From Chitinophagales bacterium (GTDB taxonomy: Bacteria > Bacteroidota > Bacteroidia > Chitinophagales > Chitinophagaceae), in assembly GCA_015655435.1 (NCBI GenBank), contig JAATFC010000241.1, positions 1-32,541 of the forward strand: a stretch of 32,541 nt of DNA, given 5' to 3'. Each line of letters begins with the position of its first letter. Within the stretch, counting starts at the first letter, position 1. Positions 26,553-32,541 of this stretch are shown piece by piece. The position numbers were made by a program, and so were the translations under genes. The notes under the pieces are model-generated. The model was not told the DNA's origin. It saw only the letters and a program-made list of their open reading frames with translations, and searched no databases.

Positions 26553-26996
26553 ATGAGAATACTAACAGCATCACTAAGAAAAAACGCCATACAATTAGCT
26601 TCATTGCTATTGGCTGTGACTATGCTACTGATGACCTCCTGCAATCTAGTGTCAGAAAGTTTCTATCAAGGAAAACTAGCCGGCATGATTAACATGGTCA
26701 ATAAAAAATGTCCACGCATAGTTGCCACCGGCGTACGTCTGGACAGTGCATCTGTCCAACCCAAAAAAACAGTAACATTCCACTATACCATGACCGAAGT
26801 AGCTCTGGAAGACATAGACACTACCATATGGAAAAGAGCCGTAGATAGTGCACTGGTTGTCGACATACGGAAGGAAGTCGACCTAAAAGAACTCAGAGAA
26901 CATGACGTAACTTTTGTTTATGATTATTTGGACAAAAACAAACAAACAATTGCAAAGTTTTACATCACGCCTGACAAATACCAATTCAAGAAATAA
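26553..26996 (+). CDS. Lipoprotein of unknown function, tandem paralog 1
   Basis: The product is 147 residues with a lipoprotein signal ending LLMTSC (lipidated Cys30). The mature protein has VTFHYTMTEVALEDIDTTIW, then LKELREHDVTFVYDYLDKN, then FYITPDKY at the end. The same three blocks recur in the next gene (27036), so they arose by duplication. The fold appears alpha/beta; I do not recognise a named family. It lies 39 bp before the paralog, and with the phosphodiesterase gene it probably forms a three-gene operon. Confidence 0.75.
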   Translation: MRILTASLRKNAIQLASLLLAVTMLLMTSCNLVSESFYQGKLAGMINMVNKKCPRIVATGVRLDSASVQPKKTVTFHYTMTEVALEDIDTTIWKRAVDSALVVDIRKEVDLKELREHDVTFVYDYLDKNKQTIAKFYITPDKYQFKK

Positions 26997-27035: not shown

Positions 27036-27458
27036 ATGAAAAAGTCCTTTAAATCCATTTTAAAAACGCAACTATTGTCTGCTGTTTTATTAATCGTTAC
27101 AGTTTTTGCACTGCAATCCTGTGGCTCTGACATGAAAAGCAAACTAGAAAAAGTTGCCAAAGACATCAACACTAAACTTCCCATGGAGCTCGGCAACGGC
27201 ATCAAATGGACGAAAGCCGAAGTCGTGTCAGAAAAAACTTTCAGGTATGTCTATACACTTGAAAACATTAGCGCAGCCGACATAGACACAACTCAATTGA
27301 AAAAACAACAAACACCTGCGATGTTAGAGGCGATTAAAACACAACCGTCCTTGAAAGAATTTAGGGACAATGATGTCACAATGCAATACGACTACAACGA
27401 CAAAACCGGTAAATATGCCTATCAAATAATTATCACTCCGGAAATGTATAAAAAATAA
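27036..27458 (+). CDS. Lipoprotein of unknown function, tandem paralog 2
   Basis: The product is 140 residues with signal peptide and lipobox FALQSC (Cys29). It shares ADIDTTQL, LKEFRDNDVTMQYDYNDK and IITPEMYKK with its upstream neighbour, but the middle differs. The stop codon lies 2 bp before the ATG of the phosphodiesterase gene, so translation of the two is probably coupled. The function is unknown; envelope location is inferred from the lipobox. Confidence 0.75.
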   Translation: MKKSFKSILKTQLLSAVLLIVTVFALQSCGSDMKSKLEKVAKDINTKLPMELGNGIKWTKAEVVSEKTFRYVYTLENISAADIDTTQLKKQQTPAMLEAIKTQPSLKEFRDNDVTMQYDYNDKTGKYAYQIIITPEMYKK

Positions 27459-27460
27459 GC

Positions 27461-28408
27461 ATGGACTTACGCAAAATATTTCTTTTCGCTTTCACTATAT
27501 TGGTTGCCCTACAATCGTATAGTCAAGATTTTAAAATAATTCCGTTAGGCGTACATGGCGGACTCGAAGAAAACAACTTGTCATCCTATCTCGTCGCCAA
27601 TAAAAACAGCGATAAGTATATTGCATTGGACGCAGGAACTTTGCATGCAGGAATCGAAATCGTCGGAAAGAAATATTTTGGTAAAACCGCAACGAAAGCA
27701 CTTCAGGAAAATATAAGCGCCTATTTTATTTCGCATCCACATTTGGATCATCTAGCCGGATTAATACAAAATGCTCCGGCAGACACTAAGAAAACCATTT
27801 ACGGATTGCCTTTCACGGTCGATGCCATATCCAAACATTATTTCAGTTGGGACACTTGGGCCAATTTTGGGGACATGGGAGAAACTCCACAGCTTAAAAA
27901 ATATCATTTGCAGGAAATGAAAACAGATGAATCCATATTGGACTCATCGAGTGGACTTTCCGTAAAAGCATTTCCTTTATCTCATTCCAGTCCCGGAAAA
28001 AGTTCAGCCTTTCTGGTAGAAAATACAAATAACAATTACCTACTTTATCTTGGTGATACCGGAGCTGATACTATTGAACATCAATCCAATCTTCGGGATT
28101 TGTGGCAGCAAGTTGGCTCACTCATCACAAACCATAGACTAAAGAGCATCATGATTGAGGTTTCCTATCCAAATAGCCAGCCCAACAATCAATTGTTCGG
28201 ACATCTGAAACCCAAACTATTAAATCAGGAACTACAAAAACTAAGCGCATTTACCTCCAAGGAACAACTATACGATTTTCCTATTATAGTTATTCACATA
28301 AAGCCGGAAGGAGACAATGAAAGGACGATAAAAGAAGAGGTAAAAAAAGAAAATCCATTTCATATAAAATGGATTTTCCCGAAACAAGGCAAGATGATAC
28401 AACTGTAA
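27461..28408 (+). CDS. Secreted class II cyclic-nucleotide phosphodiesterase (CpdP/PDE1-like)
   Basis: The product is 315 residues with a signal peptide (MDLRKIFLFAFTILVALQSYS) and a metallo-beta-lactamase fold. The active-site motif HPHLDHLAGL (92-101) supplies His92, His94, Asp96 and His97, and matches the class II cAMP phosphodiesterase signature HxHLDHxxG. Later ligands are in LSHSSPGKSSAF and in YLGDTGAD. Such enzymes hydrolyse 3',5'-cyclic nucleotides in the periplasm of other bacteria; activity on cAMP or cGMP here is inference. It is the last gene of the lipoprotein operon and converges with the phosphatase gene 35 bp away. Confidence 0.82.
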   Translation: MDLRKIFLFAFTILVALQSYSQDFKIIPLGVHGGLEENNLSSYLVANKNSDKYIALDAGTLHAGIEIVGKKYFGKTATKALQENISAYFISHPHLDHLAGLIQNAPADTKKTIYGLPFTVDAISKHYFSWDTWANFGDMGETPQLKKYHLQEMKTDESILDSSSGLSVKAFPLSHSSPGKSSAFLVENTNNNYLLYLGDTGADTIEHQSNLRDLWQQVGSLITNHRLKSIMIEVSYPNSQPNNQLFGHLKPKLLNQELQKLSAFTSKEQLYDFPIIVIHIKPEGDNERTIKEEVKKENPFHIKWIFPKQGKMIQL

Positions 28409-28443: not shown

Positions 28444-29277
28444 TTACTCGAGATACAATTCTTTCAATTTATTTATCCTAGCTGCATCCAATCCCAAACC
28501 ATTCTGTATAAACAAGTCCAATGAACCGTATTGTTTTGCCAAAGCATCAAAAGATGCTAGTAAAAATTTTCCTTTTGCAATACCGTAATCCTTTGCTCTC
28601 TGAGGAGATACGCCATATTTTTTTACCAAAATAATAGCCACTTCCTCATTGTAGGATTTTCTGTACTTATTTGTAAGTTCATAGTCGACAATGATTTGCT
28701 GTTGGCCTACTCCTAACACATATTCAATCAATGCGGCACCGATACCAGTTCTATCTTTCCCACCAACACAGTGAATAATCATCGCACTGTCCTTAGGCAA
28801 ATCCAAAAGTTCCTGAAACATAGGCTTGTAACGGTCAGCCAGCGAAGAGACATTTCGGTAATAATTTTCTGCACCTTCATCGGACTGGGACACCGTACTT
28901 TTTTTCATGTCGGCTGCCATAGAGCCCCAATCATCAGGCATTCCATCGACGCTTCCAGCATCACAGGCTATATGCTTTATTTGTTTGGGTAATATGTCCG
29001 GTCCATAAGCAATCTCTTTAGGTCCACGAAAATCGACAACTTTTGAGTTATTTAACAACGACAACAACAATGTATCTTCCGGAGTGAGTCCTGCCAATGT
29101 TGCCGAACGGTAGATTTTTCCAGACTTTATTTTCTTTTTGTCTTTAGTTACATACCCACCAATATCTCTAAAGTTGTAAGTACCATGCAATGGCAGTTGA
29201 TTGTTCTGAGCAGAGACAGACGTAATTACCAATATGCTTGCGATAAATAAAAATATTTTATTGATGTTCCTGTTCAT
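28444..29277 (-). CDS. Secreted tyrosine-phosphatase-family protein (PF13350-type)
   Basis: The product is 277 residues from the ATG at 29277, starting with signal peptide MNRNINKIFLFIASILVITS. The frame is open 12 codons further, but those precede a good signal peptide. The catalytic loop is HCVGGKDRTG with Cys170 and Arg176 (Cx5R), and earlier family blocks are FRDIGGY, RSATLAGLTPED and VVDFRGPKE. Proteins of this family act on phosphotyrosine or phosphoinositides. Export suggests an external substrate. The first 20 bp overlap the end of the upstream PLC-like gene, so they are coupled. It is the last gene of the SusCD operon. Confidence 0.85.
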   Translation of the reverse strand: MNRNINKIFLFIASILVITSVSAQNNQLPLHGTYNFRDIGGYVTKDKKKIKSGKIYRSATLAGLTPEDTLLLSLLNNSKVVDFRGPKEIAYGPDILPKQIKHIACDAGSVDGMPDDWGSMAADMKKSTVSQSDEGAENYYRNVSSLADRYKPMFQELLDLPKDSAMIIHCVGGKDRTGIGAALIEYVLGVGQQQIIVDYELTNKYRKSYNEEVAIILVKKYGVSPQRAKDYGIAKGKFLLASFDALAKQYGSLDLFIQNGLGLDAARINKLKELYLE

Positions 29278-30064
29278 CTTTTTGTGATTTGAAATAAGTT
29301 GATATGGTTTCAATGTGGTCTGTATTGATATAGTCCACGCCCAACTGTTGAAATGTTTTCCATGTCAACAAGTTGTCGGGAGCATTCCAAAAGCGTACTT
29401 TTTTCCCTAATTGGTGTACTCGTTTGACTATTGAATCAAGTATGTGATATTCTTTTGGGGAAATAGGAAAAGTCCCATCCCATTTTACAAAATGGTGCAA
29501 ATCATCACTAAGCATAGCGATGTGTGACAATATTTCGGGTGAATACACATATCTAAACTGCCCATCAAACATAACAAAAATCGGCAATTCCTTCACTACA
29601 GATTCCGAAGGCAAATGTCCTGTAATGACGATAGGTGTATGAGGATTATGCAATATAGTTGGGAATTTTTCCAGTTCTTTCAATAGCGGATATATCTCAG
29701 AATCTCCGGCTGTTTTCATTTCAACTAGCAGTTGTAACAATTTGCCGGTATCGGAAAAAGGGTAAGGAGGATGTTTGGCTATTTCATTTTGCAATGGAAT
29801 AAGATACAGGCCGGCAAGGCTTATACTATCCACTAAATCCTTTTCATCATGCCCAATCAGAATTTTTCCATTTTTCCAATACGTGTCTGCTTCTATCGAC
29901 CCAAGCCCATGATTATATGCCAACCAAAACGGTTGCTTCTGCCTATAATCGTTGTGGGAATGGACCTTAGAAATCGTATAGTTTGTTTGCTGTGCAAAAG
30001 CAGATTGCATGGTGATGAGACACCATGCAATTATTAGAAATTTGATATTTTTCTTTCTATTCAT
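29258..30064 (-). CDS. Secreted PI-PLC/glycerophosphodiesterase-like protein
   Basis: The product is 268 residues from the ATG at 30064, which overlaps the susD stop as TAATG; an ATG two codons earlier is also possible. A signal peptide (to about SAFAQ) is followed by a TIM-barrel phosphodiesterase motif set: HSHNDY (35-40), SIEADTY (56-62) with Glu58 and Asp60, and GHDEKD (71-76). The closing INTDHIETI is typical of the glycerophosphodiester phosphodiesterase superfamily. The group is often annotated as PI-PLC/GDPD-like in Bacteroidota. The likely substrate is a phosphodiester such as a glycerophospho-alcohol; specificity is not determined. Confidence 0.83.
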   Translation of the reverse strand: MNRKKNIKFLIIAWCLITMQSAFAQQTNYTISKVHSHNDYRQKQPFWLAYNHGLGSIEADTYWKNGKILIGHDEKDLVDSISLAGLYLIPLQNEIAKHPPYPFSDTGKLLQLLVEMKTAGDSEIYPLLKELEKFPTILHNPHTPIVITGHLPSESVVKELPIFVMFDGQFRYVYSPEILSHIAMLSDDLHHFVKWDGTFPISPKEYHILDSIVKRVHQLGKKVRFWNAPDNLLTWKTFQQLGVDYINTDHIETISTYFKSQKDEQEHQ

Positions 30065-31590
30065 TACCATCCTGCATTTTGCTTGATTACACCACCGCTA
30101 TTATCGATTTCCTTTTGTGGAACAGCCCATACGGCATTTACAATAGGGTCAAATTTTCTAGCTGGCCATACTACTTGTCCATTTGAACCATGCGCAGGTA
30201 TGGCATAAGCAGCCGATGCATCACCCCAACGAACCAAATCTCTATGACGATCTGCGAACTCCCCTGTGAGTTCGCAACGTCTTTCCCTTTTCAGGTCTTC
30301 CATCGTCATACCTGTTTTGGGAGACAGCCCAGCACGAACGCGTATCCTATTCAGTTCTGTATCCCCTGTACCAGCACCCTTCAACATAATCGCAGCTTCC
30401 GCTTTAATCAAAAGCACTTCCGCAAAACGCATCAACGGTACGTTCAGATTGGTAGTAGGATTGTCCCCGTTAGGGCTCACAGTCGTTCCCACAGCATCTT
30501 TATATTTGAATGGATCCATATATTTTCTAAATTGATACCCAGACAGACTATTTAGGGAAGAATAAACCATATCATCCCCAAAGTAAGTAAAATGGTCGCC
30601 TGGTTTCAATATAGTTATGTCTCTACGTTTGTCCCCTGACACATAAGCATCATACAATTCTTTCGTCGGCATATAATATCCCCAACCGTTGTATTTGCCC
30701 CATCCTTTATTTTCTAACATAACGCCTGGTAAAATACTGCCCCAGCCACCAGACCCACCAGGTGTCGCCAATGCAGACCAGACATATTCCTTGCTATAAT
30801 TATTTTCAGCTTTGAAAACATCTCCAAAATCGGACAACAAATCCCTATTACCTTGATTGATGACAGAATCTGCATAAAGAATGGCATTGGCATAATCCTT
30901 CATATAAAGATAGGTTTTGGCAAGATAACCCCAAGCCGCAACTTTGTGAGGTCGCCCATAATTGTCGGTGGACATATCCTCGATATGGGAAAGATTCTGA
31001 GCTGCATTTTTTAATTCAGAAATGATATAATTATAGTTTACTGTAACATTTTCTGCACGTGGAGTAGCCTTGGAATCATCCATGTTTTCACGAGTAACTA
31101 ACGGCACACCCTGTCTACTATCCCCATAATTAGCAGCCAACTGAAAATACATCAAACCACTATTGAAATAGGCTTCTCCCAAGAACTGTTTCTTCTTAGC
31201 CTCATCTATCGACATGGTCGGTACATGCCGTATGACATCGTTGGCACTTCTGATAATGGCATATCTCCATTGCCATTGCGGTTCCATATAACTACCTCCA
31301 ATATAAGACGAATTGAAATTTCGGATATTGTCCGCTTCCGGCTTGACACGCCCGGTAACCATATCGTCACTTGCGTTGATAAACCAAAAAAGTCCTCTTC
31401 CGTAGAAATTATCTTGATCGAGATATGCATACATCGCATTGACTCCCAATTGGGCATCCTGCTCAGTCCTCCAATAGGTACTAGATGTGGGAGCTCCTTG
31501 AGGAGTGATATCCAACTTTTTGGAACAGGAATGCAGCACTGCAACCAGTCCAATACAAAGCGGGATTTGATATAAATATTTAAGTTTCAT
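30064..31590 (-). CDS. SusD/RagB-family nutrient-binding outer-membrane lipoprotein
   Basis: The product is 508 residues with a lipoprotein signal ending VLHSCSKK (Cys22). SusD proteins lie on the surface as the lid over a SusC-type channel and bind the substrate. Visible family segments include DITPQGAPTSSTYWRTEQDA, the TPR-like YLAKTYLYMKDYANAILYADSV, and the C-terminal PLMRFAEVLLIKAEAA, RVRAGLSP and RRCELTGEFADRHRDLVRWG. It starts 18 bp after the susC stop and its stop overlaps the next gene start. The ligand is not evident, and no glycoside hydrolase lies in the operon within the window. Confidence 0.94.
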   Translation of the reverse strand: MKLKYLYQIPLCIGLVAVLHSCSKKLDITPQGAPTSSTYWRTEQDAQLGVNAMYAYLDQDNFYGRGLFWFINASDDMVTGRVKPEADNIRNFNSSYIGGSYMEPQWQWRYAIIRSANDVIRHVPTMSIDEAKKKQFLGEAYFNSGLMYFQLAANYGDSRQGVPLVTRENMDDSKATPRAENVTVNYNYIISELKNAAQNLSHIEDMSTDNYGRPHKVAAWGYLAKTYLYMKDYANAILYADSVINQGNRDLLSDFGDVFKAENNYSKEYVWSALATPGGSGGWGSILPGVMLENKGWGKYNGWGYYMPTKELYDAYVSGDKRRDITILKPGDHFTYFGDDMVYSSLNSLSGYQFRKYMDPFKYKDAVGTTVSPNGDNPTTNLNVPLMRFAEVLLIKAEAAIMLKGAGTGDTELNRIRVRAGLSPKTGMTMEDLKRERRCELTGEFADRHRDLVRWGDASAAYAIPAHGSNGQVVWPARKFDPIVNAVWAVPQKEIDNSGGVIKQNAGW

Positions 31591-31608
31591 TAGAATAAAA
31601 AATTTGAA

Positions 31609-32541
31609 TTAGAAATTAATATTGGCTCCTATAATGAAAGAACGAGACTGCGGATACCTAGCCATGTCTATCCCATATTGGTCCATACCTAGCTCTGGAT
31701 CAAAGCCACTATATTTGGTAAAAGTCAATAGATTGTTGGACGTGACATAAAATCTTGCACCCTGTATTTTTATCTTTTTAATCAAATTACTAGGAACTGC
31801 ATAGCCAATAGTCGCACTCTTAACTCTCAAGTAAGAACCACTCTCAAGATAAAAATCGGAGTTCGTTCCAAAATTTCCGTTGGCGTCGCTTGCCGTGATA
31901 CGAGGAATATTTGTATTGGTATTCGTGGGAGTCCATGCGTTTAAAATATCTTTTAGCATATTATAGTTCTGACCAACCCCGGCATTCAGACCTGTATATT
32001 TTAAGGCATTGAAAATCTTGTTGCCTCCAACTCCTTGCAGAAACAGATTAAGGTCAAATCCTTTGTAACTAAAATTCAGACTAGTATTGTATGTTATTTT
32101 CGGATATCCGCTACCGCTCGCAACACGATCATTGTTGTCAATTTTTCCATTACCATTTGCATCGACAAACTTAATGTCTCCGGGTTTTGCATTCGGTTGA
32201 ATCAAGTTTCCGTCTGCATTGACATATTTGTTTATTTCGTCCTGCGACTGGAATAATCCTGCTGTTTTTACCAAATAATAAGAATACAAAGGTTGCCCTA
32301 CCTGCAAACGTATTGGAGTGAGTGCGCCTCTGACGTTAAAGTCAACAGAAGAAGATGTTATACCATTAGGCAGGGACAATAGTTTGTTACTCAACGTTGT
32401 CACGGACGCGTTGATACTATATTGGAAATCCTTTTTAGAATCGCTAGTATAGTTAAAACCAAACTCAAAACCTTTGTCTTGCGCATTGCCACCGTTTTGC
32501 CATTGTCCAGACACACCCGTCGTTCCCGCTAACGGCACATA
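31609..32541 (-). CDS. SusC/RagA-family TonB-dependent receptor, C-terminal part
   Basis: The frame runs off the right edge, so only about 310 C-terminal residues are seen, and the GTG at 32538 is internal. The segment is beta-barrel with alternating aromatic residues. It contains GEFGFNYTSDSK-type strands, KPGDIKFVDANGNGKIDNNDR, a calcium-like DxNGNGKID loop typical of SusC-family barrels, and the last strand ending in SFIIGANINF with terminal phenylalanine. It transports the ligand captured by SusD. The missing part should hold the plug, the TonB box and most likely a carboxypeptidase-like domain. Confidence 0.93.
   Translation of the reverse strand, partial: YVPLAGTTGVSGQWQNGGNAQDKGFEFGFNYTSDSKKDFQYSINASVTTLSNKLLSLPNGITSSSVDFNVRGALTPIRLQVGQPLYSYYLVKTAGLFQSQDEINKYVNADGNLIQPNAKPGDIKFVDANGNGKIDNNDRVASGSGYPKITYNTSLNFSYKGFDLNLFLQGVGGNKIFNALKYTGLNAGVGQNYNMLKDILNAWTPTNTNTNIPRITASDANGNFGTNSDFYLESGSYLRVKSATIGYAVPSNLIKKIKIQGARFYVTSNNLLTFTKYSGFDPELGMDQYGIDMARYPQSRSFIIGANINF

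Follow-up and report, generated by a model that had tools for sequence, protein, structure and literature searches.

The question raised by this locus is what a SusC/SusD-type operon accompanied by two predicted phosphoesterases takes up and breaks down, and whether its substrate is a phosphoester rather than a glycan, as the first-pass annotation had proposed. The window, i.e. the whole stretch of DNA analysed here, is one complete contig (G000:C253, 32541 bp) whose right end falls inside susC. Four minus-strand genes occupy positions 28444-32541, namely the 3' part only of susC (31609..32541), susD (30064..31590), a secreted GDPD/PI-PLC-fold phosphodiesterase (29258..30070, with the start at either 30064 or 30070) and a secreted Cx5R phosphatase (28444..29277). 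The spacing between susC and susD is 18 nt, the susD/diesterase junction is formed by a TAATG motif (1-nt overlap with the start at 30064), and the diesterase and Cx5R phosphatase genes overlap by 20 bp. The gene set and the tight packing previously claimed were both confirmed, the former by profile matches for all four genes. Within the visible part of the operon, Pfam analysis recovered only phosphoesterases and no carbohydrate-active enzyme, up to the contig end within susC.

The susC gene is cut short because the window is the entire contig; its 5' two thirds and the operon promoter are situated past the contig end, and no orthologue-level match to the missing N-terminal part was found elsewhere in the 82%-complete assembly (best match 35%). 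The 310 C-terminal residues available match the SusC-like TonB-dependent transporter profile TIGR04056 (E 1.2e-72), and the susD product, a surface lipoprotein with the lipobox LHSC at Cys22, matches PF07980 (5.1e-28) and PF14322 (1.3e-16), so that the window possesses a SusC/SusD-like pair as described for phosphate utilisation systems. In most complete homologues, genes for an ECF sigma factor and FecR are located upstream of susC, which suggests induction by an imported ligand, with sensing of the imported substrate acting alongside, or in place of, Pi control.

The diesterase matched PF13653 above the cut-off, and PF03009 fell slightly short of it (23.3 vs 23.6 bits). Searches of PDB sequences with this protein returned no useful match, and matches were obtained by fold. 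Its AlphaFold2 model (pLDDT 91.5) most closely resembles the GDPD 3no3 (Z 16.6) and the Ca-dependent PI-PLC 5fyr (Z 15.1), followed by B. subtilis GlpQ 5t9c (Z 15.0). According to the predicted model and the alignment, the protein has the TIM-barrel fold, the two catalytic histidines and the acidic metal ligands of the GDPD/PI-PLC superfamily, and residues H35, H37, N38, E58, D60, H72, K117, R224 and D230 are invariant among 33 diesterase relatives. Since the scores against GDPD, PI-PLC and GlpQ lie within 1.6 Z of one another, the modelled fold would indicate the chemistry and not the substrate, and cannot separate the GDPD from the PI-PLC substrate class. In two other loci (L085 9320-12589 and L207 8983-12249), the same diesterase domain is fused to a PF04185 phosphoesterase in proteins of ~1090 aa, another way of joining a diesterase to a phosphoesterase.

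The Cx5R phosphatase belongs to PF13350 (E 9.6e-53) and matches PDB 8dhi (5.5e-26) and M. tuberculosis PtpB 1ywf (3.4e-10); a literature search on 8dhi yielded nothing relevant. Its P-loop, HCVGGKDRTG, conforms together with the Y_phosphatase3 domain to the HCXXGKDR[TA]G signature of the atypical lipid phosphatases (ALP), several of which hydrolyse phosphoinositides (PMC3091653), and a secreted soil member with broad specificity also accepts InsP6 (PMC6409689). By sequence, the window enzyme is therefore of the ALP type and a putative member of this phosphoinositide-phosphatase family. The predicted secretion of both enzymes was upheld, the diesterase and the phosphatase carrying N-terminal signals ending in AFA|Q and VSA|Q, respectively; as both signals are plain and have no lipobox, the two proteins are most likely located in the periplasm rather than on the surface.

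Outside the window genus, the usual neighbours of the Cx5R phosphatase are different TonB-dependent transporters, namely SusC/SusD-like_2 pairs or else lone receptors accompanied by an AraC regulator. In two uncultured genomes, a GDPD-PhoA gene is oriented divergently from a cluster of SusC/SusD-like_2 and phosphatase genes, which is a second context tying the Cx5R phosphatase to GDPD-PhoA. One operon (L079 8349-10254) combines SusC/SusD-like_2 with a free alkaline phosphatase and a Cx5R phosphatase, placing two monoesterases side by side. Genes for a DUF5690 membrane protein, a TIGR03364 FAD oxidoreductase and a PhnX-like hydrolase recur near Cx5R phosphatase loci (L241 65-2497, L226, L068, L069, L075 and L063 1830-3680), which suggests a link to the breakdown of aminophosphonates or phospho-amines.

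A survey of 294 family genomes (E 1e-15 for the phosphatase, 1e-25 for the diesterase and 1e-80 for SusD) gave matches in 26, 93 and 27 genomes, respectively. The diesterase is encoded directly downstream of SusD in 13 of the 27 genomes with SusD, against a roughly estimated chance expectation of ~0.06 among these 27 genomes for a diesterase close to SusD; the adjacency is not due to chance. Eleven family genomes, including that of the window, have a SusD at least 57% identical, nine of them with the diesterase immediately downstream, and all nine diesterases come with a phosphatase, seven as fusions of PF13653 to PhoA (PF00245) and two with an ALP phosphatase (the window and the same-genus genome G198). 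When family loci were combined with those from a genome-wide scan, 36 distinct SusD loci were obtained: 20 have a GDPD-PhoA fusion directly downstream, three have a Cx5R phosphatase, which in L064 is not accompanied by a diesterase, and 13 have no recognisable enzyme there. The last group includes L155, where a stretch of N interrupts the locus and PhoA lies beyond it; the SusD-PhoA fusion seen there is only apparent, since this stretch separates two genes. The GDPD-PhoA unit also occurs in Spirosoma, Pedobacter, Chryseobacterium and Chitinophaga, and the form with a free diesterase and a Tyr-phosphatase was found only in the window genus. Conservation of the complete four-gene set, which the first-pass annotation had asked about, is thus confined to that genus, and what is widely retained is the combination of diesterase and monoesterase.

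The window and G198 proteins are sisters (100/99) in the diesterase tree. Both SusD proteins fall within the clade formed by the SusDs of GDPD-PhoA loci (99/96) and are not sisters there. As the diesterases are sisters and the SusDs are not, a free diesterase of single origin, together with the phosphatase, takes the place of the fusion behind two related SusD lineages, the bootstrap of the larger tree being not fully settled.

Taken as a whole, the operon is probably of the phosphate utilisation system (PUS) type, importing a small phosphodiester conjugate through SusCD for diester and monoester cleavage in the periplasm. SusD and SusC would capture and import the conjugate, the GDPD/PI-PLC-fold enzyme would cut the diester in the periplasm, and the ALP-type phosphatase would then take the phosphate off the resulting monoester, yielding Pi and an alcohol, inositol or a sugar. 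This account draws on gene order, protein families, signal peptides, predicted fold, catalytic residues, the diesterase/monoesterase pairing and the single diesterase origin, all as read from sequence; from these we infer the periplasmic site and the release of Pi as the benefit. Regarding the earlier reading of diester cleavage followed by monoester removal, the conserved pairing, the GDPD/PI-PLC fold and residues and the ALP signature all argue for the two activities, while the order of cleavage itself is likewise inferred. Counting against the PUS-type account are the 13 of 36 loci that have no enzyme, the ECF/FecR genes upstream and the GH89 and HGSNAT genes in the same-genus operon.

The convergent gene to the left (27461..28408, plus strand) encodes a secreted class-II cyclic-nucleotide phosphodiesterase (PF02112, E 1.1e-47), in line with the first-pass annotation, and was considered as a third enzyme of the system. 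This was rejected: no PF02112 homologue was found near any of the ~160 compared loci, and the gene is regarded as a neighbour outside the system because it is absent beside all related loci. Just upstream of it lie two tandem small lipoprotein genes (26553-26996 and 27036-27458), which look paralogous and have no Pfam match.

Two of the alternatives, a plain scavenging system and one for glycosyl-inositol-phosphates, are narrower versions of the PUS-type account, and the confidence placed in them overlaps with that placed in it. That broad-specificity enzymes simply scavenge phosphate from glycerophosphodiesters or phospholipid headgroups, with no glycan involved, is a possibility that we hold tentatively and lean against. 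Molecules small enough for porins should not need SusCD pairs, which speaks against such substrates, as do the ECF/FecR regulation of the homologues and the presence of GH89, HGSNAT or GH92 neighbours in several of them. In its favour, the diesterase fold is nearest to GDPDs, the visible window operon is restricted to phosphoesterases, and the PUSII system of Flavobacterium is Pi-induced (PMC8115612).

The glycan-related neighbours concern the claim that a phosphoester, and not a glycan, is what the operon serves. In the same-genus genome G198, the operon continues after the phosphatase, with 11-bp gaps, into genes for a GH89 alpha-N-acetylglucosaminidase and a NagX/HGSNAT-like N-acetyltransferase; this GH89 gene (L063 5210-7434) is interrupted in the assembly, its coding sequence being spread across two frames (654 aa and a remainder of 94 aa) through either sequencing error or decay. 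Two Spirosoma-type genomes, from another order, encode SusC/SusD, GH29, GH89, HGSNAT and GDPD-PhoA in a row, relatives in Niastella and Longitalea have HGSNAT alone after the diesterase or the fusion, and in Ilyomonas and two further cases the diesterase has a GH92 gene beside it. In locus L238 (1191-14851), which resembles a larger phosphoglycan locus, genes for GH92, the diesterase, an MGH1-like GH, a PHP-domain protein and a stand-alone PhoA follow one another. In view of the same-genus, Ilyomonas and Spirosoma loci, the words 'rather than a glycan' are not supported as they stand, and the statement that no glycosidase is present holds for the visible window operon but not in general.

These neighbours point to a narrower reading, in which a glycosyl-inositol-phosphate headgroup bearing alpha-glucosamine (GPI-/GIPC-like) would be the substrate and the window a reduced form of the system. 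The steps would be N-acetylation by the NagX/HGSNAT-like protein, removal of alpha-GlcN(Ac) by GH89, opening of the diester by the PI-PLC-like enzyme and dephosphorylation by the ALP phosphatase; we consider both this substrate and this series of steps unlikely. In humans, HGSNAT and NAGLU, the lysosomal pair of heparan sulfate breakdown, jointly remove terminal alpha-glucosamine. In the Spirosoma loci and the same-genus operon, homologues of the two sit side by side, which by analogy would imply removal of a terminal alpha-GlcN; unlike the lysosomal pair, they occur with a phosphodiesterase and a phosphatase, and neither is found beside the window operon. Alongside a PI-PLC-like enzyme and an ALP phosphatase, the HGSNAT and GH89 neighbours would make a GlcN-inositol-phosphate headgroup a coherent candidate substrate. 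HGSNAT lies beside the diesterase in six of ~107 family hits, compared with ~0.25 expected by a rough estimate, although five of these six come from a single genus. Glycosidases are absent from most related loci, only one genome of the family has GH89 beside the diesterase, and the sole GH89 of the window genome is on a different contig with no related gene adjoining. The inability of the fold to tell GDPD from PI-PLC also weighs against this reading, whereas the activity of ALPs on phosphoinositides, and of one soil member on InsP6, favours it (PMC3091653, PMC6409689). A literature search for a GIPC and GPI link returned nothing relevant. The wider proposal of a SusCD-based pathway for GPI anchors or plant/fungal GIPC headgroups, proceeding via N-acetylation, GH89, the diesterase and the ALP phosphatase, is in our estimation doubtful and rather unlikely.

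The truncation within susC, and the glycoside hydrolases carried by the same-genus and other homologues, might suggest a conventional polysaccharide utilisation locus whose remainder is missing beyond the contig end and in which the phosphoesterases are accessory enzymes, but complete homologues have ECF and FecR genes followed by unrelated genes upstream of susC, not GH clusters, and most homologues have no downstream GHs, leaving this explanation quite improbable. Least probable of all as a substrate is a fragment of a teichoic-acid-like phosphodiester polymer carrying alpha-GlcNAc side groups, which would be broken down by a GlpQ-like diesterase and a phosphatase, joined in some relatives by GH89. 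GlpQ does rank among the close structural matches, and some homologues have GH89 with a glucosamine N-acetyltransferase, but the likeness to GlpQ is no better than that to PI-PLC, no other teichoic-acid enzyme was seen and the literature search gave no precedent.

Under the preferred PUS-type reading, the locus would add a second, independent answer to the monoesterase step in Bacteroidota phosphoester-uptake loci, and would tie ALP phosphatases, mainly known as virulence factors, to nutrient acquisition. The recurrent set of GH89, NagX/HGSNAT, PLC/GDPD and phosphatase makes alpha-glucosamine next to a phosphodiester a testable substrate class, and a GPI/GIPC pathway, if true, would mean that these enzymes serve nutrition in environmental bacteria.

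Among known systems, the ALPs (MptpB, the Listeria and Leishmania members and Pho16B; PMC3091653, PMC6409689) share with the window phosphatase the PF13350 domain, the HCXXGKDR[TA]G P-loop and secretion; unlike them, the window enzyme is encoded in an outer-membrane nutrient-uptake operon of an environmental Bacteroidota member. The SusCD loci of Flavobacterium that are induced by Pi depletion were described and named phosphate utilisation systems by Lidbury 2020 (PMC8115612), and the window resembles them in that SusCD is co-localised with a predicted periplasmic phosphodiesterase and phosphomonoesterase (PF13653 and PF13350, with signal peptides) and not with CAZymes. PUSI of F. johnsoniae, with two periplasmic phosphodiesterases (Fjoh_4172/4173; PMC8115612), is likewise a combination of SusCD with predicted phosphodiesterases (PI-PLC-like and cyclic-AMP-type), but their Pfam families (pf00149, pf16670) differ from those of the window and an ALP phosphatase is absent. 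The closer counterpart is PUSII, in which PusCD2 (Fjoh_3250/3251) lies beside PhoA1 (Fjoh_3249; pf00245 + pf13653) and which is induced by Pi depletion (PMC8115612). As in the window, SusCD is next to secreted phosphoesterases and not CAZymes, and a PF13653 diesterase is paired with a monoesterase; in the window this monoesterase has its own gene, for a PF13350 ALP-type phosphatase, whereas in PUSII it is a fused PF00245 domain. Window homologues, unlike PUSII, often have ECF/FecR genes upstream, and GH89 and HGSNAT are further components of the same-genus operon. The domain pair of PUSII is present in the 20 fusion loci, a likeness judged by published domain content and gene arrangement, and a Chryseobacterium locus (L259) combines the SusD type of the window with a GDPD-PhoA fusion. 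Membership of the window in PUSII was rejected, given PF13653 alone with PF13350 and no PF00245 fusion, and the absence of the PF13653-PF00245 fusion led us to class it as PUSII-like in working, a functional equivalent of the PUSII arrangement in which the PhoA half would have been replaced, in the window genus, by a separate ALP phosphatase. Since PUSII has been published (PMC8115612), the principle of a SusCD operon for a phosphoester, as put forward in the first-pass annotation, was already known in 2020; the phosphoesterase pairing on which it was based stands, and the exchange of the monoesterase represents a variant of that principle.
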